Of a stretch of 39,290 nt of DNA, positions 16,934 through 39,290 are shown piece by piece. Source of the stretch: an uncultured Lentisphaeria bacterium. Its GTDB lineage: Bacteria > Verrucomicrobiota > Lentisphaeria > Victivallales > UBA1829. The position numbers and the translations under genes were made by a program. The stretch spans positions 1 to 39,290 of the forward strand of contig CASEFP010000230.1 of NCBI GenBank assembly GCA_949287225.1, given 5' to 3'. Position 1 is the first letter of the stretch, and each line of letters begins with the position of its first letter. The notes below the pieces were generated by a model. That model was not told the origin of the DNA. It saw nothing but the letters and a program-made list of their open reading frames with translations, and made no database searches.

Positions 16934-16961
16934 AAGAAGAAGAGAAAAGCGCCGTCGCTTA
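16934..16961 (-). terminator. Possible terminator at the end of the Tad operon
   Basis: Directly at the stop codon of the last gene, a short stem (AAGCG pairing with CGCTT across ACGG) runs into a T/C-rich tract on the minus strand. The stem is short; downstream is a further palindrome TCGCGCGCGA near 16915-16925. Confidence 0.3.
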
Positions 16962-18074
16962 CTTTAACCGGGACCACGATCTGCTGTTGAAAAGTGCATT
17001 GCTGTTGGGATCGAATACCGCGGTGGATGAATTTGAGGTGTTGAATCCGGAATTGCAATAGATGATCTCATTGTCGGAGTTGATCCATGCATGATCATAA
17101 CGGCGGTCGACAAACATCTTTTCGCCGGTGTTCGGGTTGGATACGGAATCGACAGCACGGATGTATTCAGACCACATATCAGCCACCTTCTCCTGTGTGT
17201 CGGAAGAAGAGGACGCGGCTCTCTGATAAGCCTCCATCTGCTGATTCCGGATCTGAATCTGAGCAGAAACCCAGCTTGCTGTCCGCTGATTGGAAATCCG
17301 GTTGACCAATGCTATGAAATTCGGATTGGGCTGAACACTTTTTATCATTTCCTCAAGACATGTCTGCGCCTTCAGTTCGTCCCCCTTCCTGCAGCAAAAA
17401 GAAAACAAGGAAAGAAACTCGACGGTTACAACTTGACTCAATGAAATTCTGCTTTCCAGCGCCATTACTGGAATCGATAATATTACAGTCCGCCGTTTTC
17501 CCCCGCCCTCCCCTTCATAACGGGCAAAAAACTCCCGCAGGAAACAGCCTGTTAATTGGATGCCCCTCTGCGCAGACTGCCTCCGTCTTGCGGCAAGCAG
17601 CTGGTTTTTCTCCGCATCCCCGACATCCCGGAAGCATGACTCAATCAGCACGACTCCGGAAAGATTGTAGTCCTTTTGAACCGCAGGCAGAAAGTTGTTC
17701 GCCAAAATGCGCGGATCATGAAGCAGCGGAACTTGACGGATTGTCCCGGGCATGCCGATCACGCAGGGAGAAGCAACGGCGGTTTTGATTTCGCTTTCAG
17801 GACTCATGATCCAGACATACCAGGTGACAGGCTGCGCCGGATTTTGAGACCATGTTGCCTTCCCTCCGGCAAACCATCCGCCTGGAACTCTGCAGCGGAC
17901 GACCGGAGTTTGCGTCTGATAGTCGATCAGATAAAAAAGGCCGTTTACAGTATTGGCATTCTTACGGGAAGACGGAGTCCGTCCTGAATCGTCGCCGCCG
18001 CTTCCCGCCAGACAATTCACGGAAAGCATCACAACAACAGACAAGAGCAGTTTGTTCAGGCTCTTTCTCATCAT
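16959..18074 (-). CDS. Exported protein of unknown function, last gene of the Tad operon
   Basis: A 371-residue protein with a clear N-terminal signal peptide (hydrophobic LLLSVVVMLSV, then NCLAG). The Cys is preceded by Asn, so a lipobox is doubtful and cleavage near LAG is more likely. No known domain is recognised. The central part is charged, and a Gln/Ser-rich helical segment (residues ~270-305) is followed by an aromatic, Asn-rich C-terminus with a paired-Tyr/Asn pattern. It lies 16 bases after the small pilin gene, so it is likely a periplasmic or surface component of the pilus system. ATGs at 18074 and 18071 are both possible; GAGG lies upstream. Confidence 0.7.
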   Translation of the reverse strand: MMRKSLNKLLLSVVVMLSVNCLAGSGGDDSGRTPSSRKNANTVNGLFYLIDYQTQTPVVRCRVPGGWFAGGKATWSQNPAQPVTWYVWIMSPESEIKTAVASPCVIGMPGTIRQVPLLHDPRILANNFLPAVQKDYNLSGVVLIESCFRDVGDAEKNQLLAARRRQSAQRGIQLTGCFLREFFARYEGEGGGKRRTVILSIPVMALESRISLSQVVTVEFLSLFSFCCRKGDELKAQTCLEEMIKSVQPNPNFIALVNRISNQRTASWVSAQIQIRNQQMEAYQRAASSSSDTQEKVADMWSEYIRAVDSVSNPNTGEKMFVDRRYDHAWINSDNEIIYCNSGFNTSNSSTAVFDPNSNALFNSRSWSRLK

Positions 18075-18090
18075 CCATTGCCTCTTTCTC

Positions 18091-18312
18091 TCAAGGGAAA
18101 GGCTGCGCCAGCATCCACATCAAACGGCGGAACCAGTCCACAGCGTAATTACCGAACAAACCGAAATGATTTTCTTCCGAAACGGAAACCCTTGCCATTT
18201 CGATTAGAGTGGTCCCGGCATCCCCCATTGCCAGAGACCCTCCCAGCAGAACAATCAGAACAACAATGACATATTCCATCAGCATGGAGCCTTGTTCTTG
18301 AGAAATATTCAT
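18091..18312 (-). CDS. Flp-type pilin-like protein (73 aa)
   Basis: A tiny protein whose N-terminus QEQGSMLMEYVIVVLIVLL matches the Flp/class IVb prepilin signal: Gly, then four residues, Glu5 and Tyr6 (G/SMLMEY), followed by a hydrophobic helix. The mature form would be about 65 residues, the size of Flp pilins. The C-terminus is aromatic (WFRRLMWML). It is likely to be exported and cleaved by a TadV-type peptidase. The start at 18312 has GAGG eight bases upstream. It sits between a lipoprotein and an exported protein near the operon end, far from the other pilin-like gene at 36047. Confidence 0.75.
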   Translation of the reverse strand: MNISQEQGSMLMEYVIVVLIVLLGGSLAMGDAGTTLIEMARVSVSEENHFGLFGNYAVDWFRRLMWMLAQPFP

Positions 18313-18332
18313 GGAGCAGGCCTCGTCTTCTG

Positions 18333-19223
18333 CTATTTGATCGCCTGTTCAAATGACGGACGGAAATCGGGATGCTTTTTCAGTTCATTTTCTTCCAGTT
18401 GAAACGCAAGATGTTCAAATGAGAGTTCTTCCAGTTTCCTGACGCAGGACGCCAGTTCGGCACCGCTCGGCGCAGAATAATATTTCATCATGGCCTTCCG
18501 GGCTGTGGAGAGGCGTGTCAAAAGACGGCGGCTCATCGGAATGCTTTTGCATTTCACGTTGTTCTTTTCCAAATAAAAATCAAGGTGGCGGGCATCAATG
18601 CTTTTGGACTTGTCCAGATCAATGGAGAGCAGAATGATTTCCGCCTGGCCGAGCTGATCGGTACAAACCCTCAAGAAGGTATCACTCCCGGGATTTATGA
18701 CCAGCCATTCGTTGGTGAGCGGTTCCCGTTTGCTTTCCGTATAGGAATCCACAAGCGTCCGTTCCACTTTCGCGGGAATTTCCTCGACACGGCTTCCCGA
18801 TTCAAAATTCATGAAGGGGTTCATGCCGTCAAACGCATATTTTGTGACCTCGCCGGACCATTCAAACGGAAACATGCCGAATGAAAACACGCTGATGACA
18901 TGAGACATAATCGCAAACGGGAAAAGCCCCAGACCGGTCAGGAATTCATAAGACTCCCGCCATCCCTCATACGGAGTATAGAGAGAAGAAATCTTGCGAA
19001 CCTGCCAGACCTCTACCTTAATGTTTTCCATCTGTTCCAAAGTTACTTTGAATGAGGAGGAATCGGGAATTTCCTTGTCCGTCGTCAAAATGTACTGCTT
19101 GCTCAGAACGGTTCTTGAATTTTCCGGGGTCTCCTTGGTGATGTCTTCCAGATGATTCGCACATCCAGCGGCAAGAAGGGAAACCAATGCCGCTGTTCCA
19201 GCCGATAAGATTTTCCTGTTCAT
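18333..19223 (-). CDS. Lipoprotein of unknown function in the Tad locus
   Basis: A 296-residue protein from the ATG at 19223 (AGGAG upstream); the open frame extends 50 codons further but without signal features. It has a textbook lipobox, LLAAGC, so it should be lipidated at the Cys and held on a membrane. A hydrophobic segment around residues 100-120 (FPFAIMSHVISVFSFG) follows. The rest is charged helix and strand with no recognised domain. Tad systems often include a lipoprotein pilotin or a TadD TPR lipoprotein; this one has no TPR pattern, so a secretin-helper role is only a guess from context. Confidence 0.7.
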   Translation of the reverse strand: MNRKILSAGTAALVSLLAAGCANHLEDITKETPENSRTVLSKQYILTTDKEIPDSSSFKVTLEQMENIKVEVWQVRKISSLYTPYEGWRESYEFLTGLGLFPFAIMSHVISVFSFGMFPFEWSGEVTKYAFDGMNPFMNFESGSRVEEIPAKVERTLVDSYTESKREPLTNEWLVINPGSDTFLRVCTDQLGQAEIILLSIDLDKSKSIDARHLDFYLEKNNVKCKSIPMSRRLLTRLSTARKAMMKYYSAPSGAELASCVRKLEELSFEHLAFQLEENELKKHPDFRPSFEQAIK

Positions 19224-19245
19224 GTCTGTATTCACTCCTGTATTG

Positions 19246-20262
19246 TTATTTTTGCACTTTGACGAATTCTCCGATGAATTTTCCGGACTCGTCCGTTCCG
19301 GTCTGCTTCCATTCCCATTCGCTCTCAAGGCGATATTCCCCGTGATCCAGGGGAAGGACTTTGCTGATTCCAAGCACCTTGCGGCTGCCGTCCTCCAGGC
19401 GTCCGGTATGAACGATGTAATTCAAGGCGGCAACCACCTGATTACGGATCGCATTGAGCGGGAGGTCAAACCCGGCATACATGACGCAGGTTTCCAGGCG
19501 CAGCAGACTGTCGTATGCGTTGTTCGCGTGAATCGTGGACATTGATCCGGAATGCCCTGTATTCATCGCCTGAAGCAGATCCAATGCCTCGGCCCCGCGA
19601 ATTTCTCCGAGGATGATGCGGTCAGGACGCAAACGCAATGCCGAATGCAGTAAATCGCGGAATGTCACTTCTCCTTTGCCGTCCTTGTCCGGACGGCGGG
19701 TTTCAAACGGCACAAGGTGCGGCTGGCGGAGTTGAAGTTCGCAGGAATCTTCAATCGTCAGAATGCGGTCGGCCGGATCTATATACGAACTCAACACATT
19801 GAGTATGGATGTTTTCCCGGACGATGTCGCCCCGCAGATCAGTATGTTCATCCGCTTTTGCACCAGAAGTTTGAGATAGTCCAGCATCTCCTGTGAAATG
19901 CTCTGCCAGCTCACCAGGCTTTCCGGAGAAAGGGAATCGGCCCGGAATTTCCGGATGGAAACAACCGTTCCACAACGGGAAAGCGGCGGAATCACAATAT
20001 GAACTCGGGAACCGTCCGGCAAGCGGGCATCAAGACGGGGGTATTCATCGTTCAGAACACGGCCGACTGACTTCGCAATATTGTTCGCAGCGGCTTGAAG
20101 CGCCGGTTCGCTGGGAAATTTCGATTCGATTTTGACAACTCTGCCGCCTTTTTCAATATAAATATTTTCCGGCCCGTTAATCATAATTTCGCTGACAAGC
20201 GGGTCGTCAAGCCAGGGTTTAACCGGTTCCAGAAACATGGCCAGGTAAGAAATCCCATTCAT
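19246..20262 (-). CDS. cpaF: CpaF/TadA-type secretion ATPase (second copy, no FHA domain)
   Basis: A VirB11/CpaF-type hexameric ATPase that powers pilus assembly at the cytoplasmic face. It has Walker A GATSSGKT (residues 146-153 from 20268), an Asp box around [10 protein letters not shown], Walker B-region [12 protein letters not shown], and [11 protein letters not shown]. At about 338 residues it is shorter than usual CpaF because it lacks the long N-terminal extension. AAGGAG is nine bases from the ATG at 20262 and only three from the ATG at 20268, favouring the former. It follows the small kinase gene by a few bases. It is a paralogue of the FHA-CpaF fusion at 27798-29456. Confidence 0.92.
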
Positions 20263-20275
20263 ATTCATCCGCTCC

Positions 20276-21169
20276 TTATGCCAGAAGTTTTTTCAATTTT
20301 CTGCATTCAGCTTCCGCTTCTTCTACGGGGAAACAATTGCAAATGAGTTTGGCATGACTGAAATCCAGCAGGACGGGAGACCCGTCATCCCGCAGTCCGA
20401 GATTCGACTTCCGGATATCACCATGCAAAATAAATCGTCTATGCAAATAGTCAAGCGCTCTGAAAAAACCGGCTGTCCTTCTCCGTTTCCCGATCACGTC
20501 CCCTGTATGACACCATTCCATTACACAGTATGGTGAATCGCCAACATCACTGGCGAAAACTTCCGGAAGGTTCGGGTGTTTCATTTGGCACAGCCATTCA
20601 AGTTCGTTCCGGAAACGGGATTCGCCTCCGGGAACGGGAATTTTCACGGCACAGGGCCGCCCCCGGAAATCAGCCAGATACACCTGAGACGTACTCCCCT
20701 TTGCGATGAAGCGCTTCAGTTTCGCGCCGTGAATCACGGGCGGCTCTCTCAACAGTCTTTCATCAAGCGGCATTCTTCCACAGAAAACATTCCTGACAAA
20801 TTCCGGAAGGCCTGAACCTTGCCGGAACAGAACGCTGCATTCCCACCAGTCTCTGAGCACGGCGTCAAATACATCGGCTTTGAGAGATGGGCGAATATCC
20901 GCCAGCAATGCCGTCAATCTGACCGCCGCCGCCCATTGCCAGTCCAAAAAGCCGACCTGGCCGCTGAAAACGGCAGCACGCCGATCCGGGCGGAACAGCA
21001 GAAAAAAATCCAGCGGACAGAAGCCGGAGAATTCTATCTGCACAGGATGAATCCGAAGCCATTCAAGTTCCATGCTGATTTGAACGGCATATGACTCAAA
21101 GGCGGTCTGCGGCGATTCAAACCCACGGCAAAGCGCCGGGATAACGTCATTCAGTCGGCGGAGTAACAT
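20276..21169 (-). CDS. Minimal atypical Ser/Thr protein kinase-like protein
   Basis: A 297-residue protein from the ATG at 21169, where GGAGGA lies five bases upstream and overlaps the PP2C gene end by 23 bases. Residues 1-145 are an unidentified domain. Residues ~150-297 are a reduced kinase fold: a glycine-loop remnant (AKGSTSQVY), Lys176 in CAVKI, Glu189 in the C-helix, the catalytic loop HGDIRKSN (249-256, HGD instead of HRD) and DFS (269-271) instead of DFG. The protein ends shortly after, so the activation segment and C-lobe helices are nearly absent. HGD and short C-lobes occur in Bud32/RIO- and phosphotransferase-like kinases. It may act on an unusual substrate or be a pseudokinase. 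Confidence 0.75.
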   Translation of the reverse strand: MLLRRLNDVIPALCRGFESPQTAFESYAVQISMELEWLRIHPVQIEFSGFCPLDFFLLFRPDRRAAVFSGQVGFLDWQWAAAVRLTALLADIRPSLKADVFDAVLRDWWECSVLFRQGSGLPEFVRNVFCGRMPLDERLLREPPVIHGAKLKRFIAKGSTSQVYLADFRGRPCAVKIPVPGGESRFRNELEWLCQMKHPNLPEVFASDVGDSPYCVMEWCHTGDVIGKRRRTAGFFRALDYLHRRFILHGDIRKSNLGLRDDGSPVLLDFSHAKLICNCFPVEEAEAECRKLKKLLA

Positions 21170-21971
21170 CGTCGTCCTCCTCTCCGTCCGGGGGGTCCGG
21201 AGTATCAGCTTCTTCCCGGCTGACGTCGGGAGTGATTTCCGGAAGTTTCCCGAAGGCAATGACAATGGCGGTGGCATTGTCGATTCCACCGTGTTTCAGA
21301 GAAGCGTCTATCAGGTCCCTCGCCTTCTGTTCCGGTGCGGAGACTGTGCTTAGAATCTGTTTTATCTCCAGTTCAGGGAGCTGGCGGGAAACACCGTCTG
21401 AACAGAGTAAATAAAGATCGTTGTCCATGAGTTCCAGATCCTGGGTCTCGAGAAAAAATTTCGGGCCGCACCCTGCGACGTTGGTCAGGACGCCCTGCAG
21501 ATGCTTTGCCAGTTTCTCCTCTGCCACTCCCATCGCGGAGGCAATGGTATGATCCGTGGTGAGCTGTTCCAATCCTTTTTTTCTCAGCCGATAACAACGG
21601 CTGTCTCCGGCAGAAAACAGCATTCCCAAAGTCGGCTGAAACGGAGAAAGAGCAATCCCGACAATAGTGGCGCCCATGCCGCGCATATTGTTCTCCGCTG
21701 CAAATTTCTGAATTCCGGCGTTTGCCTGATAGGAAAATTTCACCATCGCAGAGAGATTTTTCAAAGGAGAAAGCACAGCTTTCGAGAGGGTCTGAACAAC
21801 GATGGCACTTGCCCGTTCGCCGCCGTCCCCGCCGCCCATGCCGTCGGAGACGACGAACAATCCCCCCGAAGGCTGGCAGGTGTAAGAGTCCTGATTTTCC
21901 TTGCGGGCCAATCCCGTATCGGTATATGCCCCGGCATTGAAGTATTTTTTCTGAAACAGAAGAAACGGCAT
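21147..21971 (-). CDS. PP2C-family protein phosphatase
   Basis: It dephosphorylates Ser/Thr-phosphoproteins, using two metal ions, in the cytoplasm. Seen in 274 residues: RKENQD (23-28), SDGMGGGDGG (42-51) with the metal-binding Asp, MRGMGATIV, SAGDSRCY, TTDHT, LCSDGVSRQL and GIDNATAIV near the C-terminus, all family motifs in order. The last 30 residues are an acidic Pro/Asp/Glu tail. It starts six bases after the double-FHA gene, with AAGGTG inside that gene's end. It is the natural antagonist of the 1061-residue kinase encoded in the same operon. Confidence 0.94.
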   Translation of the reverse strand: MPFLLFQKKYFNAGAYTDTGLARKENQDSYTCQPSGGLFVVSDGMGGGDGGERASAIVVQTLSKAVLSPLKNLSAMVKFSYQANAGIQKFAAENNMRGMGATIVGIALSPFQPTLGMLFSAGDSRCYRLRKKGLEQLTTDHTIASAMGVAEEKLAKHLQGVLTNVAGCGPKFFLETQDLELMDNDLYLLCSDGVSRQLPELEIKQILSTVSAPEQKARDLIDASLKHGGIDNATAIVIAFGKLPEITPDVSREEADTPDPPDGEEDDDVTPPTE

Positions 21972-21977
21972 TGCTTG

Positions 21978-24359
21978 TCACCTTGGATATTTCTTGAATC
22001 CCCACATGCGGCGCACCACGGGATCTCCGGGGATGCCTTGGCGGAGAATGGAATCTCTGATTTCAATTTTCTGTTCGTCGGAGGCGGTATTGTATTCCCG
22101 TCCCAGCTGAATCAGCGGAAGCCGCATTTTCTTGAAGTCGCGGGCAAAGGATTCCATATCCGATTCCTTGACTTCCCCGCCCATCAGGAAAATGGCGATG
22201 GCTTTGCTTAAGATAGATTCCCGCAACGACTTGGAATCCTCGGCAGTGAAATACTTTGCTGCCAGTTTGTTCCGGAATTCAAGCACCTCTCCGGTACTTT
22301 CATAGAGACGCTGGAAAGCGCCGGCATGCAGCCAGTCGTTGTGTTTCTGATCAGCGAAGGTCCGGAAGGTTTGAATCGCTCCGAGCAGATTCCTGAATTT
22401 GACGATTTCAGGACGGAACTGGAACTCCGAATACACCGATTGGTCATAAGGGGCCGGAAGCGCATAGATGAATTCAAAGAATCCTTCGATCCCGAGAACA
22501 CGGTCGTATTCCCCCGCAGGCTCCGTCCTGAGACGGGAAGGCATCTTCTTTTCAAAGGCATCACAGGAAAATACTTTCTTCATAACATCCTGATTTTGAA
22601 ATATTGATACGCATTCCGGCAGGGAGGTATCCTTGCCCAGTCCTGCTTCGTTCAAATTGCGGATCAGCGGACGCAGATTGGCCGCGACGGCAAGGATAAT
22701 GTCGAATTGCCGCTCCTGCTGTTTCCTGAGCGTGGCGATATTCGCGTTGACGACGCATTGCTCCAATGTCGGGAGATCCAGACGGATCGAGTCGAGTTTT
22801 TCAAATTCCAGCTGCTGGACCGCAATCATGGCACGCTTGATCTGTTTTCCGGTCCTCTGCAGCATCGCCAGGGGAACCATGCAGCTTTCGATTCGGATGC
22901 GGATGTTCGGCTCGGCATGCTGCTTCAAATCATCCAAATCGCTCAGGACCATGGCGAGATTGTCCGATTCGGACTCGATTCTTGCGAGAATGCCCTCCAG
23001 TTTTTCCAAATACAGCAGGTTGTCTTCGATCTGCTTGCAGAGGATCACCGAGTCCGCCAGAAGTTTTTTCAAATAGACGGGAGGCTTTTGCGAGAAGAGT
23101 TTTTCAATCCCACCGATGACTTTTACGGATTGTTTCAAATCGGCGAGATTTTTCTGGTTCCGGTCGTCGCGCATGGAAGTTTCCGCCAGAAGATACGCAT
23201 CCAGCAATTTTTTAACGGTGAACGCTTCTTTGCGCATTTCAGGCGCAGTGGTGTCGTTCCATCCCCAGACATTGGGATCGGCATCGGTAATCATCCCGAG
23301 GATGTGAGAGGATTCAATCCAGTTGCCGGAATTCAGTGCCGACTTCGCCTTTCCCCAGTTGGCAAAAATCTTTTCCCATACGGTGATGGACTGGTCAAGT
23401 TCGTTATAAGCAATTTCATTCGCTTCCGAACCTCGGCGCGAACGCGATTCCTTCAGAAATTCACGAGCTTGATCGAAACGTTCGGCGGCAGCCTCGCGCC
23501 TGGCATAGTTCAAATACGTGTCGGAAGATGATTTGACACCCATCCAGAACCAGTTCAGAGCCAAAACGATGAAAATGGTCGCCGCGACAATGCCGAGGCT
23601 CGACCATATTCTGATCTTGGAATGCTCAATGCTTCCGTCCACGAATTTGAAATCGACGAAGGAAATACTGATGACATCATCGTCGACCAGCAGGCGCTCC
23701 GTACTGGAGGAGAGTTTTGTGCCGTTTACAAATGTGCCGTTTTTACTGCCGAGGTCGCGCAGCCAGCAGCCATCCGCCTTGCTGTTGAATTCGACATGAC
23801 GCTGTGAAACAAGCTGTTCGTCGATAACGAGATCGCAACTGGGTGCGGAGCCCGCCACCATCCTGGGAGAGTCCAGCCTGACCGACTGCCCTTTTTTGTC
23901 GGTATTGAGATACACCAACTCATGTCGCGCGGTATTGGACGCTTTGAGTTTCTCCACATAAAGGGTGCAGCTGCCGATGGCGAACTGATCGTCCGCGGCA
24001 AGGTTTTTTTCCTGAATTTTCCGTGCCTTGTAGAAAATTCCGTTACGGCTCCCCGTATCACGCAGGCACAGGCGCCCCTTGCGCATCAAAATCACGGCAT
24101 GATGCCCGCTGGCGACATTGTCTTCCTTGGGAATCACCCATGTACAGTCCGCGCTTCTCCCGATGGTGATGGTGTCTGAAGCGGAAAGATCGGCGACTTC
24201 GTACAACACCTTGTGATTGAATTCAAGCCGAAGACTCAGCCTTTCCTGAGCCGTTTTCTTCAAAGAAAGAGTGCGCACTACGGTATTGTGAAAATGCTTG
24301 AAAGTCTCGCGGGAGAACATCCGCTTGAAGAGACTTCTCCCCGAATTGCTTACTCCCAT
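21978..24359 (-). CDS. Double-FHA transmembrane protein
   Basis: A 793-residue protein from the ATG at 24359 (AGGAGGAACGT directly upstream, overlapping the previous gene by 10 bases). FHA domain 1 (residues ~45-135) has Gly-Arg 67-68, SGHH 84-87 and Asn106-Gly. FHA domain 2 (~155-240) has SQRH 185-188 and Asn207-Gly, but Ser replaces the Arg of the Gly-Arg pair. One transmembrane helix follows at ~252-275, then about 500 residues of mainly helical, coiled-coil-like sequence on the outer side. FHA domains bind phosphothreonine, so the cytoplasmic part would read kinase signals and the periplasmic part could touch the pilus machine. Confidence 0.88.
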   Translation of the reverse strand: MGVSNSGRSLFKRMFSRETFKHFHNTVVRTLSLKKTAQERLSLRLEFNHKVLYEVADLSASDTITIGRSADCTWVIPKEDNVASGHHAVILMRKGRLCLRDTGSRNGIFYKARKIQEKNLAADDQFAIGSCTLYVEKLKASNTARHELVYLNTDKKGQSVRLDSPRMVAGSAPSCDLVIDEQLVSQRHVEFNSKADGCWLRDLGSKNGTFVNGTKLSSSTERLLVDDDVISISFVDFKFVDGSIEHSKIRIWSSLGIVAATIFIVLALNWFWMGVKSSSDTYLNYARREAAAERFDQAREFLKESRSRRGSEANEIAYNELDQSITVWEKIFANWGKAKSALNSGNWIESSHILGMITDADPNVWGWNDTTAPEMRKEAFTVKKLLDAYLLAETSMRDDRNQKNLADLKQSVKVIGGIEKLFSQKPPVYLKKLLADSVILCKQIEDNLLYLEKLEGILARIESESDNLAMVLSDLDDLKQHAEPNIRIRIESCMVPLAMLQRTGKQIKRAMIAVQQLEFEKLDSIRLDLPTLEQCVVNANIATLRKQQERQFDIILAVAANLRPLIRNLNEAGLGKDTSLPECVSIFQNQDVMKKVFSCDAFEKKMPSRLRTEPAGEYDRVLGIEGFFEFIYALPAPYDQSVYSEFQFRPEIVKFRNLLGAIQTFRTFADQKHNDWLHAGAFQRLYESTGEVLEFRNKLAAKYFTAEDSKSLRESILSKAIAIFLMGGEVKESDMESFARDFKKMRLPLIQLGREYNTASDEQKIEIRDSILRQGIPGDPVVRRMWGFKKYPR

Positions 24360-25972: not shown

Positions 25973-25984
25973 GCTGATTTCTCC

Positions 25985-26893: not shown

Positions 26894-26915
26894 GATCCCT
26901 GCCTTCTTTCCTGTT

Positions 26916-29456: not shown

Positions 29457-29488
29457 TCCTTCACCTCATTTCCATATATTTTAGAATA

Positions 29489-31000: not shown

Positions 31001-31021
31001 GGCGAACTCCTTATGGTTGAT

Positions 31022-31771
31022 TTATTTTTTTGGCGTTTGGGGAATATTGACAACTTCAAGGTCATTAACCATCGAACTGAACGTTTCCGGTGTCACCATT
31101 CCGGCATCCATCCGGTTCAGGGCGGTCGGATCGTTGCTCCTGCGCAGCACGGGAGTCAGTTCCGCAATCCGCGAAGCGGCGATCAGCGCCTGCGCCTGCT
31201 GCGGAGGAAGAAGAACGATAATAACCCCGTCCATGTTCTGGTCCCGCTTGCCGGACGGAATTTCCAGCACCCGGACTTTTGGGAACAGCACCATGGTCAC
31301 ATCTTTTTTGCCGGGAGGCACTCCGGCTCCGCCTTTGAAGTCGAGCTTGAATGTGCCTATAATCGCCACCTCGTCTCCGCTCTGCAGAAGCGATGCCATG
31401 GCCTTGTCCGCAATCTGGATGGCGACCGCCCATTCTCCTTCGCCGACCACATTGCTCATTCCCTGGGAAAGTCCCACATCCTGAATGAAAATGTAGTTGC
31501 CTTTCTGCACCGACTGTTTCAGACGCTGCCCGACAATCATGGACGATCGGTTCCATTTTATGGCCTGTGCCGGGACGGCGGATATCGGCACCTCCTTCGG
31601 CATGAAGAAACCCTCCGCGATAATCTCTCCGGCAGAAAGATCGCGGGTTGCCGCCACAATTTTCACTGTTTCCTCCACTTTGGCCGTGTTGGTGGAGATG
31701 ATCTTGCTTACGGCGAACACCGCTGCCAGCCCCAGCAGCACAGCAAGAATCAGGGGAATGGAATTTTTCAT
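31022..31771 (-). CDS. cpaB: Flp pilus assembly protein CpaB/RcpC
   Basis: A 249-residue protein with an N-terminal transmembrane/signal helix (PLILAVLLGLAAVFAV) and a SAF domain (VKIVAATRDLSAGEII through PISAVPAQAI), followed by the RcpC/CpaB beta-rich domain (VAIQIADKAMASLLQSGDEVAIIGTF). It is a periplasmic assembly protein thought to assist the secretin. It lies between the kinase gene (43 bases upstream) and cpaC. AAGGAA precedes the ATG. Confidence 0.9.
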   Translation of the reverse strand: MKNSIPLILAVLLGLAAVFAVSKIISTNTAKVEETVKIVAATRDLSAGEIIAEGFFMPKEVPISAVPAQAIKWNRSSMIVGQRLKQSVQKGNYIFIQDVGLSQGMSNVVGEGEWAVAIQIADKAMASLLQSGDEVAIIGTFKLDFKGGAGVPPGKKDVTMVLFPKVRVLEIPSGKRDQNMDGVIIVLLPPQQAQALIAASRIAELTPVLRRSNDPTALNRMDAGMVTPETFSSMVNDLEVVNIPQTPKK

Positions 31772-31814
31772 GTTCCGTTGTTCCTTATGTTACATGGTTT
31801 TATTTTCATTCCAA

Positions 31815-34800
31815 TCAATCCAGCGCTTTCCTCCGGCGCCTGGCCTTGTCGTTTCCCTGTTCCGCGGATTTCCCATACCAGTACTTCGCCTTGCCGACAT
31901 TGATCGGCACTCCGATTCCGTTTTCATAACTGTATCCGAGCTGATACTGCGCATCGGGATGTCCGGCTTGCGCGGCGGCTGTGAAGAACTCAATCATTCT
32001 CGTGTAATCCACCGGCTCGTTTCCGTCTCCGTCCTTGTATGCCATTCCGATCCGGAACAGGGCATCCGGATTTTTCTGATCCGCGGATTTTTTGTACCAT
32101 TCTATGGCCTTCCTGATGTCACGGTCCAGGCCGCCGCGTCCTTTTTCATAAAACAAGCCCACCTGATATTGAGCTTGCGGATGATTCAACGGCGGGTCCG
32201 CCGCGATCCGATAGCAGGAGAGGGCATCCGTGTCACTGGCGAACCAGCGGCCCTTCCCCTGTTCATTCATCTGCCCGAGTCGGAACATGGCTTCAGGATG
32301 CCCTTTTTCGGCGGCAGCCTTCAGTTTTTCCACGGCGTCCTTGTTGTCGCCGTCTTCTATCAGTTTTTCCGCTTCGGCGAATTCAGCTTCTCCGGGGACG
32401 GCGGCCTGCTGTTTCTGCTCAAGAACGATTTTATAGATGGATTCCGGCTGCAGTTCCGGAATGGGAATGCTGGATTCCGTCCCGCCGGAGATTCTCCATC
32501 TCAAGTTATAGGTCTTGAAAGGTGGGAGGGTGATATTCTTCTTCAGCGGCTCCCATATCCCGAATAGATTAATGGATATCTTTTCGTTGATTTTCGTTGT
32601 GATTTCCAGAGAGGCGTCTTTTTCCGAAAGATATATTTCAGTCGTGCATTTCGCCTGGTCCGGGGCGATTTTCAAAGACTGAACCGTCGGGCGGATTCCC
32701 TTCCCCTGCAGCGACAGCGTATGATTCATCCGGGTCACTTCCATTTCATACGGGAATTTTGTGATCTTCTTCCATTCGCCGTCATCAATGCGGAGTTCCA
32801 CAGCATGGTCCGTCAGGAATTCCAGCAGCTTGGCACTACCATAAACCTTCACGGTGCAGGCGCATACGTCATGTAAAAGATCTATCTTGACACAGGTGAT
32901 CGTCCGGCTGTCCGAAACCGGAAACGCTCTTTCAAGCGACTTGAAACCCGGGGCTGACACGGAAAGCCTGTATTGGCCAGCAGGAACACTGAATTGAACT
33001 TTCCCGTTGACCGGGACACGCTGCGAGGCCAGTTCACGGCCAGCTTCATTCGTCAGGACTGTTCGGGCTCCAACCGGAGTGATTTCTGCAAAAACTGTGA
33101 TTTTTTTCACTTCGGGCGGTTGCATATTTGGCGTTTTCGATACAGGTGGGCGGGATGATCGTTCGGCTTCCGCACGTCGGCGCTCTTCCGCCCGTTTGCG
33201 TTCGGCTTCCGCACGTCGGCGCTCTTCCGCCCGTTTGCGTTCGGCTTCGAGCTCGCGGCGCTCCTGCTCCAGCTGACGCTGTTCTTCCTCCAGTTTACGC
33301 TTTTCCTCTGCCAATCGCGCGCTGTCATGTGCGGAGGGCGGCGCCTCCGTTTCCGACTCCTCAGGCACGGGAAGAGGCGTTTCCGCTTCTTTTGGAACAG
33401 GGGTGTCAGCGGTCTCAGGCTCAGCAGCAGGCGCCGCCTGCTGGGCGGATGTGATGATGTCGGGAGCCGATTCCCCGGAAAGCGGTATATCGGAAGGAAA
33501 CACCTCCTCCGATGAAGATGAATTGTCGGAAACAAAGGGGGAGTCATGCAGTGTCTGTGAGGGGAGCGGGGCATCCGGAATGGGCGGTGGAGCGGTCAGC
33601 AAGAAAGTGATCGGCAGTCCGATCAATACAAGAGTCACCAGCGAGAGAACTCCGTAAAAAATCCGGATATCCCGGTGCATGGCATCGATCATGCGGGCGC
33701 AAAATTCGATTCTACACAGAGAGGTTTCCAATTGCAGCAGCACATGACGCATCAGCCAGGTCGAGACGGGATTGCCCCTGGTCGGAGTCAATGAAACAGG
33801 AGTGTAATTCCCGGCTCCGGATTGTTCCAGAAGTTCCCGGATGCTTTTCTGAGAGTCAAAATCGGGGGGGAGAATATTCAGCGCACGGATTTCCTTCAGC
33901 AATTCTTCCGCGCTGTGCTGACGCTGTTTTGCCTGTTTCGAGAGCATTTTCATGACCAGACGCGCTGTCTGCGGAGAGATGGAGTCCACCAGAGCTCGGG
34001 GATCCGGAACAGGAGCGGAAACTAATTTTGTCAGAATATCATAGGTGCTTTTCCCGGGATACGGGATTTCTCCGGTAAGCATTTCATATAATGTCGCGCC
34101 CAGACTGTAAATGTCGGCGCGGACATCCACCGAATGGGCGTCCTGCGCCTGTTCCGGAGCGAGATAGGCGGGAGTGCCCATCATGATATGGGATTTGGTC
34201 AGCTGAAGATTTTCTTCCGTATTTTTGGCGATACCGAGGTCGGCAAGTTTGACTTCGCCGCGCCGGGTCAGCATTACGTTGTCCGGTTTGATGTCGCGGT
34301 GGACGATCTTCTGCTCGGCGGCGGCCTTCAGCGCTTCCGCCACCGCTTCGGCGATGATGATAGCGTGTATTTCACTGAGATGAGGGATGCTGTGAAGCAC
34401 GTTGCGGACGGTTCCCCCGTCCACATATTCCATAATGATATAGCAAAGTCCGCTGTCGGATTCGTCTACGACGTCCAGCACATTGACGATGTTCGGATGG
34501 CTGATCGAACACGCCATCTTCGCTTCCTGAATAAAACGTTTGACAAATTCTCCGCCGCGTCCGTAAAGTTCGCCGGAAAGCACTTTTGCCGCCCGGAAAA
34601 CCCCAAGCGTTTCATGCCGTACCAGATAGACGCTGCCCATGCCTCCCTGACCAAGTTTCCTGACGATGGTGTAACGGTCGATCCGGTCGCCCGGCTGCAA
34701 ATCGTCCCCGATGTTTTTCTCTCCCGCTTCCGCAGGATTTTCCTGAATCATGGTAACGTCGGTCCGATGAGGATTGTCAGGAGTGTTGGCCACCATGGTC

Positions 34801-35000
34801 AGCTCGGTCTTCATCCTTCCCGCATCAGGAGAGGCTTCCTCAGGAGCGGGTGCGCTCACCATAGTCACTTCGGTGGAATACTTTATTTCATGATCTATCG
34901 ACGAAACAGCGGAACCCCTCTCCGAATCCGGCGGCACCCGGGAGGATGCCGCATCAGGAGAGGAATTCTGATTGTTTTTCCGTGTTCCGTTTCCGCTCAT
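31815..35000 (-). CDS. Transmembrane Hanks-type Ser/Thr kinase with Sel1 repeats
   Basis: A 1061-residue membrane kinase. Residues 1-100 are disordered, with three Thr repeats (TEVTMV 43-48, TELTMV 65-70, TDVTMI 80-85). The kinase domain (~108-375) has GQGGMG (117-122), Lys139, HRDIKPDN (234-241), DLG (254-256) and GTPAYLAPEQ, so it looks active. A transmembrane helix lies at ~447-469. Outside are a Pro/Glu-rich linker, an Arg/Glu/Ala coiled coil built on a 39-bp repeat, a PEGA-like beta domain (~640-710), further beta domains and four or five Sel1/TPR-like repeats (~905-1055). It overlaps the upstream gene by ATGA, so translation is coupled. It probably phosphorylates Tad and FHA partners encoded around it. 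Confidence 0.92.
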   Translation of the reverse strand: MSGNGTRKNNQNSSPDAASSRVPPDSERGSAVSSIDHEIKYSTEVTMVSAPAPEEASPDAGRMKTELTMVANTPDNPHRTDVTMIQENPAEAGEKNIGDDLQPGDRIDRYTIVRKLGQGGMGSVYLVRHETLGVFRAAKVLSGELYGRGGEFVKRFIQEAKMACSISHPNIVNVLDVVDESDSGLCYIIMEYVDGGTVRNVLHSIPHLSEIHAIIIAEAVAEALKAAAEQKIVHRDIKPDNVMLTRRGEVKLADLGIAKNTEENLQLTKSHIMMGTPAYLAPEQAQDAHSVDVRADIYSLGATLYEMLTGEIPYPGKSTYDILTKLVSAPVPDPRALVDSISPQTARLVMKMLSKQAKQRQHSAEELLKEIRALNILPPDFDSQKSIRELLEQSGAGNYTPVSLTPTRGNPVSTWLMRHVLLQLETSLCRIEFCARMIDAMHRDIRIFYGVLSLVTLVLIGLPITFLLTAPPPIPDAPLPSQTLHDSPFVSDNSSSSEEVFPSDIPLSGESAPDIITSAQQAAPAAEPETADTPVPKEAETPLPVPEESETEAPPSAHDSARLAEEKRKLEEEQRQLEQERRELEAERKRAEERRRAEAERKRAEERRRAEAERSSRPPVSKTPNMQPPEVKKITVFAEITPVGARTVLTNEAGRELASQRVPVNGKVQFSVPAGQYRLSVSAPGFKSLERAFPVSDSRTITCVKIDLLHDVCACTVKVYGSAKLLEFLTDHAVELRIDDGEWKKITKFPYEMEVTRMNHTLSLQGKGIRPTVQSLKIAPDQAKCTTEIYLSEKDASLEITTKINEKISINLFGIWEPLKKNITLPPFKTYNLRWRISGGTESSIPIPELQPESIYKIVLEQKQQAAVPGEAEFAEAEKLIEDGDNKDAVEKLKAAAEKGHPEAMFRLGQMNEQGKGRWFASDTDALSCYRIAADPPLNHPQAQYQVGLFYEKGRGGLDRDIRKAIEWYKKSADQKNPDALFRIGMAYKDGDGNEPVDYTRMIEFFTAAAQAGHPDAQYQLGYSYENGIGVPINVGKAKYWYGKSAEQGNDKARRRRKALD
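33161..33248 (-). repeat. 39-bp tandem repeat inside the kinase coiled coil
   Basis: Two perfect 39-bp units (33161-33199 and 33200-33238) plus a 10-bp partial copy. In frame they encode a 13-residue Ala/Glu/Arg/Lys heptad-like unit (AEERRRAEAERKR). Copy number could vary without shifting the frame. Confidence 0.9.
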
Positions 35001-35365
35001 GGCTTCTTTTCTTTCTTCGGCTCTTCTTTCAGCACACCCCAGGCAAATCCGGTGAGAGACACATCCTCACGCCAGTATTGCACCAGGATCCTATCTTTGC
35101 CGTTCCACCACATTTCCAGTGATTTCCAGTGGACACGGTCATATTCGACCGTCTTCAATTTCATCCAGCCCTGTTTCCGCAAGGAAAGATCAAAATTCCT
35201 TTTTGCAGCGATGTAGGAAAGAGACATGGTGCCGCATTGCCGCCACGTTTTTCCGTCCGCGTTTTCATCGGCGGAAAGTTGCGAATCCGCGGGGAGGCGG
35301 ATGTCCGCTGCCGCCGCCGCGAATGCAAGGGAAAATGCGCATAAAAATACCGACAGGAATTTCAT
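34997..35365 (-). CDS. Small exported protein of unknown function in the Tad locus
   Basis: A 122-residue protein from the ATG at 35365, where GGAG lies nine bases upstream; ATGs at 35380 and 35371 are possible. It has a classic signal peptide (KFLSVFLCAFSLAFAAAAA), so it is periplasmic. The mature part is Trp-rich (seven Trp in about 100 residues) and ends in a Lys/Glu-rich tail. No domain is recognised. It lies between tadE, whose stop overlaps its start region, and the kinase, whose ATG overlaps its TGA. That placement suggests a function tied to both, for example sensing by the outer part of the kinase. Confidence 0.65.
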   Translation of the reverse strand: MKFLSVFLCAFSLAFAAAAADIRLPADSQLSADENADGKTWRQCGTMSLSYIAAKRNFDLSLRKQGWMKLKTVEYDRVHWKSLEMWWNGKDRILVQYWREDVSLTGFAWGVLKEEPKKEKKP

Positions 35366-35367
35366 AC

Positions 35368-36042
35368 TCATTTGCTCCATGCCTCGAATTGCGGATTCCG
35401 AATATACTCGGCGCCGTCGCTGACGGAAAGCGACCGCGGCTTATCGTCTGGGACTCCTTCTCGATCAATGAAGGCGGTGCGGTATTCCACATACCACAGC
35501 GGCCCGCCCTGCGCAAGTTCGCGGCCCGATTTTTCACGGACATCGTAATTTGCGCGCATCAGCACGCTGTGGGTGTCCGGGCTCTCGATTTCACGCGATT
35601 TGAATGAAAGATTGTCCCATAACTTTTTATCAGGCGACTTGCCGATGTCGGCGAAAAGCTGAATCGCTCCTTTCCGACATCCCACCGCCCAGACAGGAAG
35701 AACCATCTTGAGTTCCGCCGCTCCGCGCACTACGGAATACCAGTCCGCCTTCGTTTTGCGGGATGAAAACGATTCCAGTTTCGTCCCCTCGGCGAATTCT
35801 CCGTCCGGGAAAAAAGCTTCCGACGCATCTTTCTTCACCTTGTCATCATCCTTATTCTCGTATCGGTTGCCGGAGAGCCAAACAGCGAAACGGTCGGCCG
35901 CGGTCAGCCTGTTGCGTCCGAGTTCCAAATCGCCGAGCAGATAGATTCCGCTGAAAAAAGCGATATACAAAGGAATCACGAGGATCGCTTCCATCAGAAC
36001 CGATCCCCGTTCCGTCATCATTTTTTCCAGCGTGTTCCTCAT
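35368..36042 (-). CDS. tadE: TadE-like pseudopilin
   Basis: A 224-residue protein with a cytoplasmic leader of about 12 residues and TERGSVLMEAILVIPLYIAFF: Gly, then Glu at +5 and a hydrophobic helix, as in TadE/TadF minor pseudopilins. The periplasmic part is charged and aromatic with no recognised domain. It begins four bases after the Flp-like gene with a weak ribosome-binding site, so it is probably translated in step with it. Minor pseudopilins are thought to prime or tip the Flp fibre. Confidence 0.8.
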   Translation of the reverse strand: MRNTLEKMMTERGSVLMEAILVIPLYIAFFSGIYLLGDLELGRNRLTAADRFAVWLSGNRYENKDDDKVKKDASEAFFPDGEFAEGTKLESFSSRKTKADWYSVVRGAAELKMVLPVWAVGCRKGAIQLFADIGKSPDKKLWDNLSFKSREIESPDTHSVLMRANYDVREKSGRELAQGGPLWYVEYRTAFIDREGVPDDKPRSLSVSDGAEYIRNPQFEAWSK

Positions 36043-36046
36043 TTCA

Positions 36047-36370
36047 TTACTGTCCGCCTTTTACGCCATGCATGTAGTCGGAATATTGGCTCGCGACTTC
36101 GGCATCCTTTTCCGTATCTTCCCGGAATCGCTGCTGAATTTCCGAAAAATCCTCATCCGGCAAGGGAGCCATGACATAGGACATCAGGGCAAACTGTTTG
36201 GTGACGGCGCGGGAGAATGTGATAACCATCATCACCGCGCCGCCTGCAATCAGAACGCAGAGAAGCACATACTCCATCGTAACGGCACCGGAAGCACTGA
36301 AAACGAGACGACGGAAAAATCCTGCCTTGCGTTTCCACCATGACCGTTTTGCCTTATTTTGCATGTGCAT
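36047..36370 (-). CDS. Flp-type pilin-like protein (107 aa)
   Basis: A small protein with a basic leader (residues 1-28) and then SGAVTMEYVLLCVLIAGG, a match to the Flp prepilin signal: Gly, four residues, Glu5, Tyr6 and a hydrophobic helix. The mature part is about 75-80 residues, slightly longer than common Flp pilins, with an acidic C-terminal extension. The ATG at 36370 has AGGAG a suitable distance upstream (a TTG three bases earlier is possible). Together with tadE it forms a pilin cassette. It is a candidate for the main pilin of this system. Confidence 0.8.
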   Translation of the reverse strand: MHMQNKAKRSWWKRKAGFFRRLVFSASGAVTMEYVLLCVLIAGGAVMMVITFSRAVTKQFALMSYVMAPLPDEDFSEIQQRFREDTEKDAEVASQYSDYMHGVKGGQ

Positions 36371-36396
36371 CAAGCTCTCCTGTATCGTTTCCGTTG

Positions 36397-36933
36397 TTAT
36401 CTGCCCAAATTGAGGAGTCCCTGAAGAAACTTCTGGCTTCTTTCATAATCCTCTTTATTGTTTTCCTTGAGCTTCTTGTCCGATTCCAGATGCCATTTCC
36501 AAATCTCTTTCCCGATCTTTCTGATCTGCTCCATCACCCATTGGTTCTTGCGGATGCCTTCTCCGAACACATCCACAATCGCAGTTTCCCATGCCTGCAG
36601 GAATTCTTTTTCGTTTGTAGCAAGACTGGCCTGAATTCCACCCCAGACAAGTGCATTCACTTTTTTTATTTTATCGACCCATCCGAGCCATTTTGCTCCG
36701 GCCTGCATCAGAGGATTCCCGCTTTTCTCCATAACTTTGGTGGTAAGTTTTTCAAGTTCTTCCTTTGACATAACGCTCTCGGTGGCTTTGCTCTTTTTCG
36801 CGGTATCGTTTTTCTGAACCGTTGAAGAGGTCTCCTTGGATTTTTCAGCCGCCACGAGGTCGACGGAAAGGAAAACACATCCGCATACCAATAGTATTGC
36901 CATTGAAAATCTGATTGTTCCGTTGTTTTTCAT
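36397..36933 (-). CDS. Exported protein of unknown function (178 aa)
   Basis: The ATG at 36933 is preferred because AAGGAG is eight bases upstream and only two from the ATG at 36939. A signal peptide (MAILLVCGCVFLSVDLVAA) ends near residue 30. A Lys/Ser/Thr-rich linker follows, then a mainly helical domain with many Trp (residues ~80-150). No known domain. It is paired with the exported protein just upstream (11 bases), and both precede the pilin genes. It could be a periplasmic assembly factor or secreted cargo. Confidence 0.65.
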   Translation of the reverse strand: MKNNGTIRFSMAILLVCGCVFLSVDLVAAEKSKETSSTVQKNDTAKKSKATESVMSKEELEKLTTKVMEKSGNPLMQAGAKWLGWVDKIKKVNALVWGGIQASLATNEKEFLQAWETAIVDVFGEGIRKNQWVMEQIRKIGKEIWKWHLESDKKLKENNKEDYERSQKFLQGLLNLGR

Positions 36934-36950
36934 AATCATGGCTCCTTAGT

Positions 36951-37943
36951 TTATTTGCTTTTGATGTTCATGATCTGCTGAGCAAACTTGTCGTTCAAAA
37001 AGAGCATGAGAAAACTGGGTTTCCCGTTTTCTTTCGGAACAGAAACCAAAATGGCAAGCTCCGGCCAAAGGGTCGAGGAATATGCGTAGACCGACTGATC
37101 TTTCCCATTCAAAAAGGCGGTAATGACGATGCTCTCTCTCGTTTCAGCGGGAAATGCAGTGAATTTTTCAAGCATGCTTTTGGCATTTCCGCCGGAAAAC
37201 ACTTTTCCCAGCTCGTCAGCGCTTCCGGATTGAAGCAGATCTCCGAAACGGTCCGCCTCCTTCAGCGCAGCACTGTTGCCGGGGTCCTTGAGCGAGGCAA
37301 GCAACTTCGCATTCAGATAAGCATTGAGTGTCACATCTGCAAACATGCCGTCCGAATCGTTTTTCAGATATTTGGCAAATTCCGCCGTTGCGTCCTTCCC
37401 TGAAAACTTGCTGTCAAAAACTTTTTTTGTGGCCTGATAGGTTTGAATGATCGCCAGATCAAAAGCCTCGCTTGTCGGAAAAATGGATTGCGCGGGTTTT
37501 TCCGCATCGAATTTTTCTCCACGGAAAACCGAACCCGGAAGGAAAATAAAGTTTTCCGGTGCGCTGAAACGCTCGGAATTATCCATCTGGAACAGGAGGA
37601 TGGAATCCTGCCATACATTGTAGAAAGCCGCAATTCCACTGTATTCATTCTGAGTGCCCGTGAAAACAACAGCGGTGGCAAAGAAATTTTTCAGCAACGG
37701 AGCACTGCCGTTTTCCAGGACTGTCGGCTGGATCATTTTTTCCCATTTTGCTCCGGCACCTTTGCTCATCCAATCCCTGACCGTCTTCACCGGCGTTTCC
37801 TTGGCAAAAATTCGCATGACGGAAATATTGCCTTCAAACGGATTTCCCACGGTGTCTTGTGTATTTTCTGCAAATGCCGTCTGCATGCTTCCCGCACACC
37901 CCATGATGAGTGCGGCCGTTGTCAGCAATTTTGTTGTCTTCAT
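36951..37943 (-). CDS. Exported protein of unknown function (330 aa)
   Basis: The signal peptide (TAALIMGCAGSMQTAFA) is followed by cleavage at AFA-E. The mature protein is soluble-looking, alternating strands and helices, with aromatic patches (AAFYNVWQDSILLFQMD, then ENFIFLPGSVFRG). No recognised domain. AGGAG lies 11 bases before the ATG at 37943. It sits between the TadG-like gene (23 bases) and the 178-aa exported gene (11 bases), so it belongs to the pilus operon. Confidence 0.65.
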   Translation of the reverse strand: MKTTKLLTTAALIMGCAGSMQTAFAENTQDTVGNPFEGNISVMRIFAKETPVKTVRDWMSKGAGAKWEKMIQPTVLENGSAPLLKNFFATAVVFTGTQNEYSGIAAFYNVWQDSILLFQMDNSERFSAPENFIFLPGSVFRGEKFDAEKPAQSIFPTSEAFDLAIIQTYQATKKVFDSKFSGKDATAEFAKYLKNDSDGMFADVTLNAYLNAKLLASLKDPGNSAALKEADRFGDLLQSGSADELGKVFSGGNAKSMLEKFTAFPAETRESIVITAFLNGKDQSVYAYSSTLWPELAILVSVPKENGKPSFLMLFLNDKFAQQIMNIKSK

Positions 37944-37966
37944 GCTGTTTTTTCTCCTGTTCTGTT

Positions 37967-39290
37967 TTAGTGGTGTAAATGCGACTTCGCAGCGGAAAAT
38001 TCTATGTTTGAATAGGAACTGAATTGATCTTTCCCCACAAAAGTCTTAGATGCGCCCAGCTTCTTTGCCAAATCTTCAAGCAGATTTGATTGGGGAGTCG
38101 AATCCTTGTCCCGCAGCGGCAAGAACAGGGCGTCCCAGTCCGCCACGCACAGATTGTCCTGGTCCTCGATACTTCCCGTATTGCGGTATTCCCCCTTTTC
38201 CCATTCGGGAAGACGATACCCGGCACGCGCTCCGGAAATGCTCCACATGGTCTGATTGCCGCCACCGACGTTGAATGCCGAATAGATCCCGGACTGTTCA
38301 CCGCCTCCGAAAATGAAGGCAAAGGGATTATTCAAAGGACGCGACACTCCTGCAATAATTGCTCCGTCAGGCTTAAAAAAGTTGGATTTCAATACCATCG
38401 GACATGCTTTCTCCCCGGTATAATACTCGTCTCTTCCCTGTTCGCCTGTAACAGGCGGAGCCGCCTGGGCGGAGAATCCGGCATAATGACACACGGTGTC
38501 ATGCCACCAGAGTTGATTGTAAGTGAACCATCTGGCGCTGAGAGTATTTCCGATCTGCTGATAATTCCGCTGGAATCCTTCGGCGCCGGCAAGAGTCAGC
38601 CATGTATTCGCTCCGATCCCGAGCGTCTCCTCGGCTGAAGTGGAAAAATCCCCGAATCCGAGAAAACGGCCTTCGTCATCGGATGAAAGGGCTTCAAAAT
38701 AAAGGTTCGCATCCTTCAACTCGTAAAGGGTCCATTGTATTTTGCGTTTTTCCCTGGTTTTTCTGTCATTTTCCGTCAGGGAGACATTGGCGTTGACGGC
38801 AAATTCCACCGCATTTTCAATCCGTGTCTTCATGCCGGAAATCAATTCCTTCTCCGCCTGATTCATGGAAGCGACACAGTTCCGCAGAGATTTCAGAAGC
38901 GACACCGGATTCTGCGCCGCATTCACGGCAAGCCCCCCGAGGATTTCCGGAATTCCCACGTTCTGCGATTCGTTCAGGCGGATTACCTGATGAGCAATCC
39001 CTTCACTTGCTCCGCCGGAAGGATCGACTCCGACCCGCCAGTTGACCGTCTCGATTTTGTGCCAGCAGCAGGCGCAGAGCTGCTGGGCGGCGGCAGTCAC
39101 GGCGCGGTCATGCTCCCAGCGCTCCGCCACTTTGGTCAGCCAGGCTCCGACGATGTGATCCATCTGGCGGCGCGTCATCATGACGTAATTCCAGGCCATT
39201 GCCTTGTTGATGACGGCGACACGGCTGATCGTGTCCGCCTGAACCAGCGCCCCGGAATACGCGGCGGCGTCTGCCGCGTTTTGCAGTTCG
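37967..39290 (-). CDS. TadG-like Tad pilus protein (N-terminus outside window)
   Basis: The frame is open from the window edge to TAA at 37967, giving about 440 residues; an internal ATG at 39199 is not the true start. The first visible residues, QNAADAAAYSGALVQADT, are the region that follows the membrane helix in TadG-type proteins (usually an ADAAALAGA-like stretch). The remainder is long, Trp- and Gly-rich, with no vWA motif that can be recognised. TadG helps couple the inner-membrane platform and the outer channel. Operon position before the pilin genes fits. Confidence 0.65.
   Translation of the reverse strand, partial: ELQNAADAAAYSGALVQADTISRVAVINKAMAWNYVMMTRRQMDHIVGAWLTKVAERWEHDRAVTAAAQQLCACCWHKIETVNWRVGVDPSGGASEGIAHQVIRLNESQNVGIPEILGGLAVNAAQNPVSLLKSLRNCVASMNQAEKELISGMKTRIENAVEFAVNANVSLTENDRKTREKRKIQWTLYELKDANLYFEALSSDDEGRFLGFGDFSTSAEETLGIGANTWLTLAGAEGFQRNYQQIGNTLSARWFTYNQLWWHDTVCHYAGFSAQAAPPVTGEQGRDEYYTGEKACPMVLKSNFFKPDGAIIAGVSRPLNNPFAFIFGGGEQSGIYSAFNVGGGNQTMWSISGARAGYRLPEWEKGEYRNTGSIEDQDNLCVADWDALFLPLRDKDSTPQSNLLEDLAKKLGASKTFVGKDQFSSYSNIEFSAAKSHLHH

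Follow-up and report, generated by a model that had tools for sequence, protein, structure and literature searches.

Tad pili switch between assembly, retraction and rest in ways that are poorly known, and the locus described here raises the question of whether such a machine may carry its own phosphorylation switch. The window (the whole stretch of DNA analysed, 39,290 bp) is contig CASEFP010000230.1 (C230) of a 4.27-Mb draft genome of an uncultured Lentisphaeria bacterium, which is 94% complete and 4.98% contaminated and which groups, by its named relatives, with the Victivallales. From its right edge down to position 16959 it contains 20 consecutive minus-strand open reading frames (ORFs), and the twenty genes listed by a first-pass annotation, which had proposed a Tad/Flp operon with a built-in Ser/Thr phosphorylation circuit, were all found in place. 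Our analysis suggests, with a probability of roughly 60%, that this operon encodes a pilus machine of the Tad type together with its own phosphothreonine (pThr) circuit, in which the motor would be held by pThr arrays and the marks erased by a PP2C phosphatase. Writer, eraser, readers and acceptors all appear to be encoded in this one operon, and one of the readers is part of the motor. Relatives keep the kinase, phosphatase and FHA parts together, and this suggests phosphorylation switching of the pilus. The features on which the argument depends are the following.

31815–35000, minus strand: g07, transmembrane Hanks Ser/Thr kinase (Pfam Pkinase 5.5e-50, Sel1 1.7e-31)
34743–34877, minus strand: Thr-motif array of g07 (TEVTMV, TELTMV, TDVTMI), candidate autophosphorylation and FHA docking sites
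31022–31771, minus strand: g08, CpaB/RcpC (TIGR03177 6.2e-26, above cut-off)
29489–31000, minus strand: g09, CpaC/RcpA secretin (Pfam Secretin 3.3e-15)
27798–29456, minus strand: g10, FHA-CpaF motor ATPase (FHA 9.3e-11, T2SSE 8.8e-66; best PDB match to CpaF structures)
26916–27782, minus strand: g11, TadB (T2SSF 2.5e-16)
25985–26893, minus strand: g12, TadC (T2SSF 3e-15; start moved from 26935 according to orthologue starts)
24350–25972, minus strand: g13 (FHA1), with FHA, disordered linker, transmembrane segment and PsbP/Mog1/EagT6-like domain (FHA 5.3e-09; AlphaFold2 and fold search)
25388–25681, minus strand: predicted disordered linker of g13 with KTVIP, KTAVP, KTQIP and TRLAS (low pLDDT, motif enrichment)
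21978–24359, minus strand: g14 (FHA2), with two FHA domains, transmembrane segment and large helical domain (FHA 4.2e-32 in two stretches; AlphaFold2; start moved from 24419)
21147–21971, minus strand: g15, PP2C phosphatase (PP2C_2 1.4e-08, above cut-off)
20276–21169, minus strand: g16, truncated kinase-like protein with HGD/DFS motifs (Pkinase 3e-08, above cut-off; start moved from 21289)
19246–20268, minus strand: g17, second CpaF (CpaF2), without FHA (T2SSE 1.4e-55)
18333–19223, minus strand: g18, lipoprotein with lipobox LAAGC, read from the sequence (start moved from 19373)

Catalytic and pThr-binding residues

The transmembrane kinase, the PP2C, the minimal kinase and the four FHA domains, one of them on the motor, had been named from the sequence alone, and all were confirmed by Pfam. 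The kinase g07 begins with its Thr array, which is followed by the kinase domain, a transmembrane segment at about residue 450, and periplasmic PEGA-like and Sel1 repeats. Every full-length copy from loci of the window's kind, here called A1 (their sister subclade is called A2), retains its K, E, HRD Asp, N and DLG Asp as well as the Thr of the activation loop. All seven metal or catalytic residues checked in PP2C are invariant in all copies. The protein g16 keeps K/E/D/N/D in 11 of 11 copies, despite its small size and its HGD and DFS motifs. The operon encodes together an intact kinase, an intact PP2C and FHA domains with pThr-binding residues, the composition of a circuit of the PpkA/PppA/Fha type. 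A defence system was considered and rejected: the PADLOC matches to the kinases reflect the kinase fold, and the neighbourhood is not one of defence genes.

Three of the four FHA domains possess the Arg, Ser and His that bind pThr, and the fourth has no such Arg. In FHA-CpaF, G27, R28, S42, R43 and H45 are invariant in the A-type alignment, and Arg28, Ser42 and His45 are kept in every A1 and A2 sequence. The three residues are also kept in A1 in FHA1 and in FHA2a, one of the two FHA domains of g14; in the other, FHA2b, the Arg is replaced by Ser or Ala in all copies. In type B Tad systems of the same genomes the N-terminus of CpaF is also FHA-like, yet where Gly-Arg is expected it reads Gly-Ser or similar. 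Structure models predicted for the C-terminal domain of g13 (24350–25255) a fold like those of PsbP, Mog1 and the type VI secretion system (T6SS) effector chaperone EagT6 (E about 1e-5, moderate confidence), and for g14 a pair of FHA domains followed by a helix and a large helical domain, with fold matches covering the FHA part only.

Conservation across Lentisphaeria

We searched 60 relatives with FHA-CpaF and with PP2C, and the loci obtained were fetched and mapped as a first set. A class-wide search then supplied 20 further loci (16 A1 and 4 A2) as a held-out set, which is not wholly new in three cases, as G112, G121 and G179 match in length contigs seen earlier (L102, L099 and L103). A1 loci were found to carry the kinase, FHA1, FHA2 and PP2C jointly with FHA-CpaF, at protein identities down to about 25%. 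PP2C was present in 17 of the 18 A1 loci of the first set, either on the locus contig or on a continuing contig (G005 and G030), and in the sole locus without it, G008, the contig stops inside FHA2. Among the held-out A1 loci the count was 13 of 16; in the remaining three (G176, G124 and G122) the contig breaks off shortly after FHA2. In A2 loci no PP2C was found, either in the first set (0/8) or in the held-out set (0/4). Where a genome has no A1 locus, it mostly contains a single PP2C, located elsewhere. FHA2, searched for across the class, was present in 42 of 149 genomes, from six families.

No DNA similarity was found downstream of the operon among the window, contig C92 of the same genome and the relatives, and therefore the gene set is conserved despite unconserved surroundings. 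In a maximum-likelihood tree the A-type FHA-CpaF proteins form one clade with 100/100 support, which in this analysis was found only in Lentisphaeria, and the A2 subclade within it also received 100/100. The synteny check suggested in the first-pass annotation, which asked whether the signalling genes only rarely accompany the Tad genes in relatives, was thus run, and it found this Tad type together with the kinase, PP2C and the two FHA proteins throughout Lentisphaeria. At the genomic level, the annotation's "distinct phospho-controlled Tad subtype" is well supported by this synteny, the single FHA-CpaF clade, the intact catalytic and pThr-binding residues, and the candidate acceptor arrays.

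The 12 A2 loci (8 of the first set and 4 held out) lack not only PP2C but also Thr arrays in the FHA1 linker, and their short kinase adjoins CpaF2. In all first-set A2 loci the pThr-site Ser of FHA1 and the Ser or His of FHA2a are lost, while the site of FHA-CpaF is kept. Such a joint loss would fit a circuit of mutually dependent parts.

Candidate phosphothreonine arrays

T-x-hydrophobic-T motifs are present in the kinase N-termini, with 9 matches against 0.02 expected in the held-out kinases; the pattern was set down only once these kinases had been viewed, from motifs that had been described earlier. The motif is absent from the five other readable kinases of the same genome. The copy number of the g07 array differs among close relatives through tandem duplication. 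In the linker of g13, the predicted local distance difference test score (pLDDT) is about 30 over most of residues 98–195, which means predicted disorder. K-T-x-I-P and K-T-A-L-P recur there in distant genera in which the linker is otherwise unalignable. A pattern for the FHA1 linker, derived from the first loci and then left unchanged, gave 39 matches in held-out A1 loci against 9.7 in shuffled linkers, and 0 matches in held-out A2 loci. In one locus (G152:C12; L206, L207), K/R-T-C/D-P-G-E is repeated in tandem about ten times in the FHA1 linker, which makes for a strongly expanded Thr array, and a second double-FHA gene lies 8 kb downstream.

Proposed mechanism and points against it

In the mechanism that we propose, an envelope cue would reach the kinase through its periplasmic PEGA/Sel1 part, perhaps with the lipoprotein g18, and would turn it on. 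The active kinase would phosphorylate threonines of its own N-terminal array and of the g13 linker array, and these multivalent pThr arrays would be bound by the FHA domains of g13 and g14 and by the six FHA domains of a CpaF hexamer. The FHA-bearing motor, the probable target of the circuit, would thereby be gathered and held at the TadB/TadC platform. PP2C would remove the marks and release the motor, and the FHA-less second CpaF could then work alone, for example in retraction. We infer the order of assembly, the envelope cue, the role of g18 and the exchange between FHA-CpaF and CpaF2 from the gene content. The candidate residues for motor control by threonine phosphorylation are R28 of FHA-CpaF, the threonines of KTVIP, KTAVP and KTQIP, and those of TxVTM.

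A more specific version is possible, although rather doubtful: the pThr arrays on the kinase and g13, read by the FHA domains of g13, g14 and every CpaF subunit, may form a phospho-dependent hub that places and loads the motor, stands in for TadZ/CpaE, and chooses between the two CpaF motors. No KGG-type Walker A, as in TadZ/CpaE, was found in any fetched A or B locus. The genome has one AAA_31 protein, on another contig, and the TadZ_N model, which matched no control genome, was uninformative. Replacement of TadZ/CpaE was rejected as a trait specific to A-type loci, as the deviant Walker A pattern is missing in type B loci too; because of this, the missing TadZ Walker A is not diagnostic.

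Several observations weigh against the pThr circuit. Three held-out A1 linkers (G121, G124 and G138) score zero for the FHA1 pattern, and two of them carry T-V-I-D and T-A-I-D instead. An A1 subgroup (G100, G115, G119, G121, G179 and G019_C68) has a nearby kinase without an N-terminal array. The shuffled Pro/Thr-rich linkers against which the FHA1 pattern was counted are a crude null. Moreover, A2 is one clade, and its joint loss may be a single event and not independent evidence.

Relation to known systems

Tad systems with a class III CpaF (N-terminal FHA, disordered linker, ATPase) are mostly betaproteobacterial (PMC12019362). Our g10 has the same architecture, with N-terminal FHA, linker and CpaF core, and these systems resemble the A1 operon in the FHA fused to the motor and in their core Tad parts. 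However, PMC12019362 names no kinase/phosphatase circuit, and no PP2C was found near FHA-CpaF in the beta- and gammaproteobacterial loci that we examined. The Tad motor studied in that paper is single and bifunctional. The operon described here has two CpaF ATPases (19246–20268 and 27798–29456), with FHA on the 27798–29456 copy only.

The Kil system of Myxococcus xanthus (PMC8460266) is likewise a Tad-like machine whose ATPase carries an FHA domain and which has further FHA proteins. Unlike the A1 operon, which holds two ATPases, TadE/G, a kinase and PP2C in one operon and so does not have the composition of Kil, it is encoded in two clusters with one ATPase and no TadG, and PMC8460266 describes neither a kinase nor a phosphatase for it.

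PP2C beside FHA-CpaF was also sought in other phyla and this candidate was rejected: outside Lentisphaeria such a gene was found only in Bdellovibrionales, as a PP2C-like one, and their CpaF is FHA-less. In three of their clusters (L151:110-4169, L169:258-4168 and L170:20-4091), genes for an FHA protein, a double-FHA protein and a PP2C-like protein lie directly upstream of Flp and CpaA, and TadE, CpaB, CpaC and CpaF also adjoin FHA/PP2C-like genes. These clusters differ from the A1 operon in that the PP2C is weak and apparently partly degenerate, CpaF is joined to a CpaE-like N-terminus, and no kinase is present within the fetched flank. Homology of the C-terminal region of g14 to the Bdellovibrionales double-FHA protein was not detected; only the FHA and PP2C domains align. 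The shared gene order hints that the link of FHA/PP2C to Tad is older or arose more than once.

The PpkA/PppA/Fha pathway of T6SS (PMC3953482, PMC12607579) is similar in that a membrane Hanks kinase, a PP2C, an FHA scaffold and the machine are co-encoded, and an outer-membrane partner in A. citrulli parallels the lipoprotein g18. This pathway is the working precedent for the proposed circuit. The difference is that it serves another machine, whereas the Tad operon has FHA on the motor itself and repeated Thr arrays. Searches of the open-access literature, which leave out most subscription papers, yielded no link between a kinase/PP2C/FHA circuit and Tad pili. FHA-CpaF fusions and FHA-rich Tad-like systems are already known (PMC12019362, PMC8460266), and the conserved kinase/phosphatase/array circuit is new. 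If the circuit is real, it would extend the kinase/phosphatase/FHA logic of type VI secretion to a pilus and would suggest a purpose for the FHA domain in class III CpaF motors.

Alternative explanations

The main rival is transcriptional control, which we consider unlikely. Here the kinase/phosphatase/FHA set would time transcription of the operon through an extracytoplasmic function (ECF)-type sigma factor and not act on the motor, and the FHA of CpaF would be an old incidental fusion. The operon does open with the gene for an ECF-type sigma factor, which is followed by that for a small protein, and a Hanks kinase whose phosphorylation of an ECF sigma factor switches on a secretion system is known (PMC13147305). 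However, the motor FHA retains its three pThr-site residues in all aligned A1 and A2 sequences, and the membrane proteins g13 and g14 are encoded directly 3' of TadC. Control of the motor and of transcription could also act together.

Two other explanations are less likely. One, which is improbable, casts g13 and g14 as structural scaffolds akin to SctD/YscD of type III secretion or to GltG; their FHA folds would be used without phosphate, and the kinase and PP2C would act elsewhere. In its favour, the FHA-transmembrane architecture is like that of YscD (Yop-YscD_cpl and SctD matches), the Arg of FHA2b is lost everywhere, and FHA1 and FHA2a are degraded in A2 systems that nevertheless persist; for A2, scaffold-only use of FHA may well be true. 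But the pThr-binding residues are kept in FHA1 and FHA2a of A1, and the arrays are retained even where the linkers cannot otherwise be aligned. The other, a Kil-like device for contact-dependent killing or predation, with the same phospho-switch but not an adhesion pilus, is very unlikely. For it speak the FHA-KilF and several FHA proteins of Kil (PMC8460266) and the Bdellovibrionales Tad clusters, whose FHA, double-FHA and PP2C-like genes are ordered as g13-g14-g15. Against it, Kil has a single ATPase and no TadG (PMC8460266), where the A1 operon has TadE, TadG, CpaA, Flp and two ATPases, and no relation to g14 was detected for the C-terminus of the Bdellovibrionales FHA2.

Tad identity and the remaining genes

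The components that define a Tad/Flp (type IVc) pilus, namely a CpaF/TadA ATPase, TadB, TadC, CpaB/RcpC and a CpaC/RcpA secretin, are present. Of the Tad core claimed in the first-pass annotation, the two CpaF, TadB, TadC, CpaB and CpaC were confirmed by Pfam/NCBIfam and the TadG-like protein through the orthologue of g01, but the in-window TadE and Flp assignments are not backed by a model match. No Flp or TadE model is reached by g04, g05 or g19, which are pilin-like only in a G/xxxxE motif and a hydrophobic stretch. Flp and CpaA/TadV are encoded off the window, on contig C136 (orthologue matches: Peptidase_A24 1.5e-15; Flp_Fap 5.4e-05, below the curated cut-off), and TadE was matched at 8.5e-10 by the orthologue of a gene beyond the window edge. 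The remaining genes are as follows.

37967–39290, minus strand: g01, TadG-like, open at the window edge, N-terminus lost at the contig end (intact 489-aa orthologue matches Pfam 'Tad', TadE/G-like, 1.2e-05)
36951–37943, minus strand: g02, exported, 330 aa, no family (signal-peptide-like start; kept in A1 loci)
36397–36939, minus strand: g03, exported, 180 aa (hydrophobic N-terminus; kept in closest relatives)
36047–36373, minus strand: g04, pilin-like (SG/AVTMEY motif and hydrophobic stretch; no Flp model match)
35368–36042, minus strand: g05, TadE/F-like minor pilin candidate (RG/SVLMEA motif; wide in A-type loci; no Pfam match)
34997–35380, minus strand: g06, small exported protein (hydrophobic N-terminus; conserved)
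18091–18312, minus strand: g19, short pilin-like (QG/SMLMEY, from sequence; kept in A1 loci)
16959–18074, minus strand: g20, exported, membership doubtful (one weak 37-aa match in only one relative)

The gene g20 is not conserved in relatives and may not belong to the operon. Overlaps of about 4 to 26 bp between genes remain, and the longer ones that had been reported are artefacts of start choice; the likely corrected starts are 26893 (g12), 24359 (g14), 21169 (g16) and 19223 (g18). The lipoprotein gene g18 adjoins g07 homologues in several distant loci (G026, G027, G030 and G031). PHROGs gave no useful match for the exported proteins.

Operon extent and genome context

The operon extends upstream beyond the window with five further genes, among them those for an ECF-type sigma factor, Flp, CpaA/TadV and TadE. 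The order in relatives is ECF-type sigma factor, small cysteine-containing protein, Flp, prepilin peptidase, TadE and full-length TadG-like g01. In the same genome the missing 5' genes are on contig C136 (L183, G000:C136:1-5548), whose start overlaps the window end by an identical 110 bp. Contig C92 has the same 110-bp overlap, and the assembly graph forks at C136 because the window end (39290) and the C92 start both join it through these 110 bp. C92 carries a close copy of the locus and may be a second locus in the genome or a co-binned strain; C13 and C45 carry a more distant third copy.

The small cysteine-containing protein encoded 3' of the sigma factor (also L053:5840-6651) has no family match and is a possible anti-sigma factor; together the two could provide a second layer of control. 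Elsewhere in the window, the gene at 12525–13316 encodes a protein with an N-terminal methylation motif and DUF1559 similarity, and adjoins sugar-nucleotide and glycosyltransferase genes at 7842–12271.

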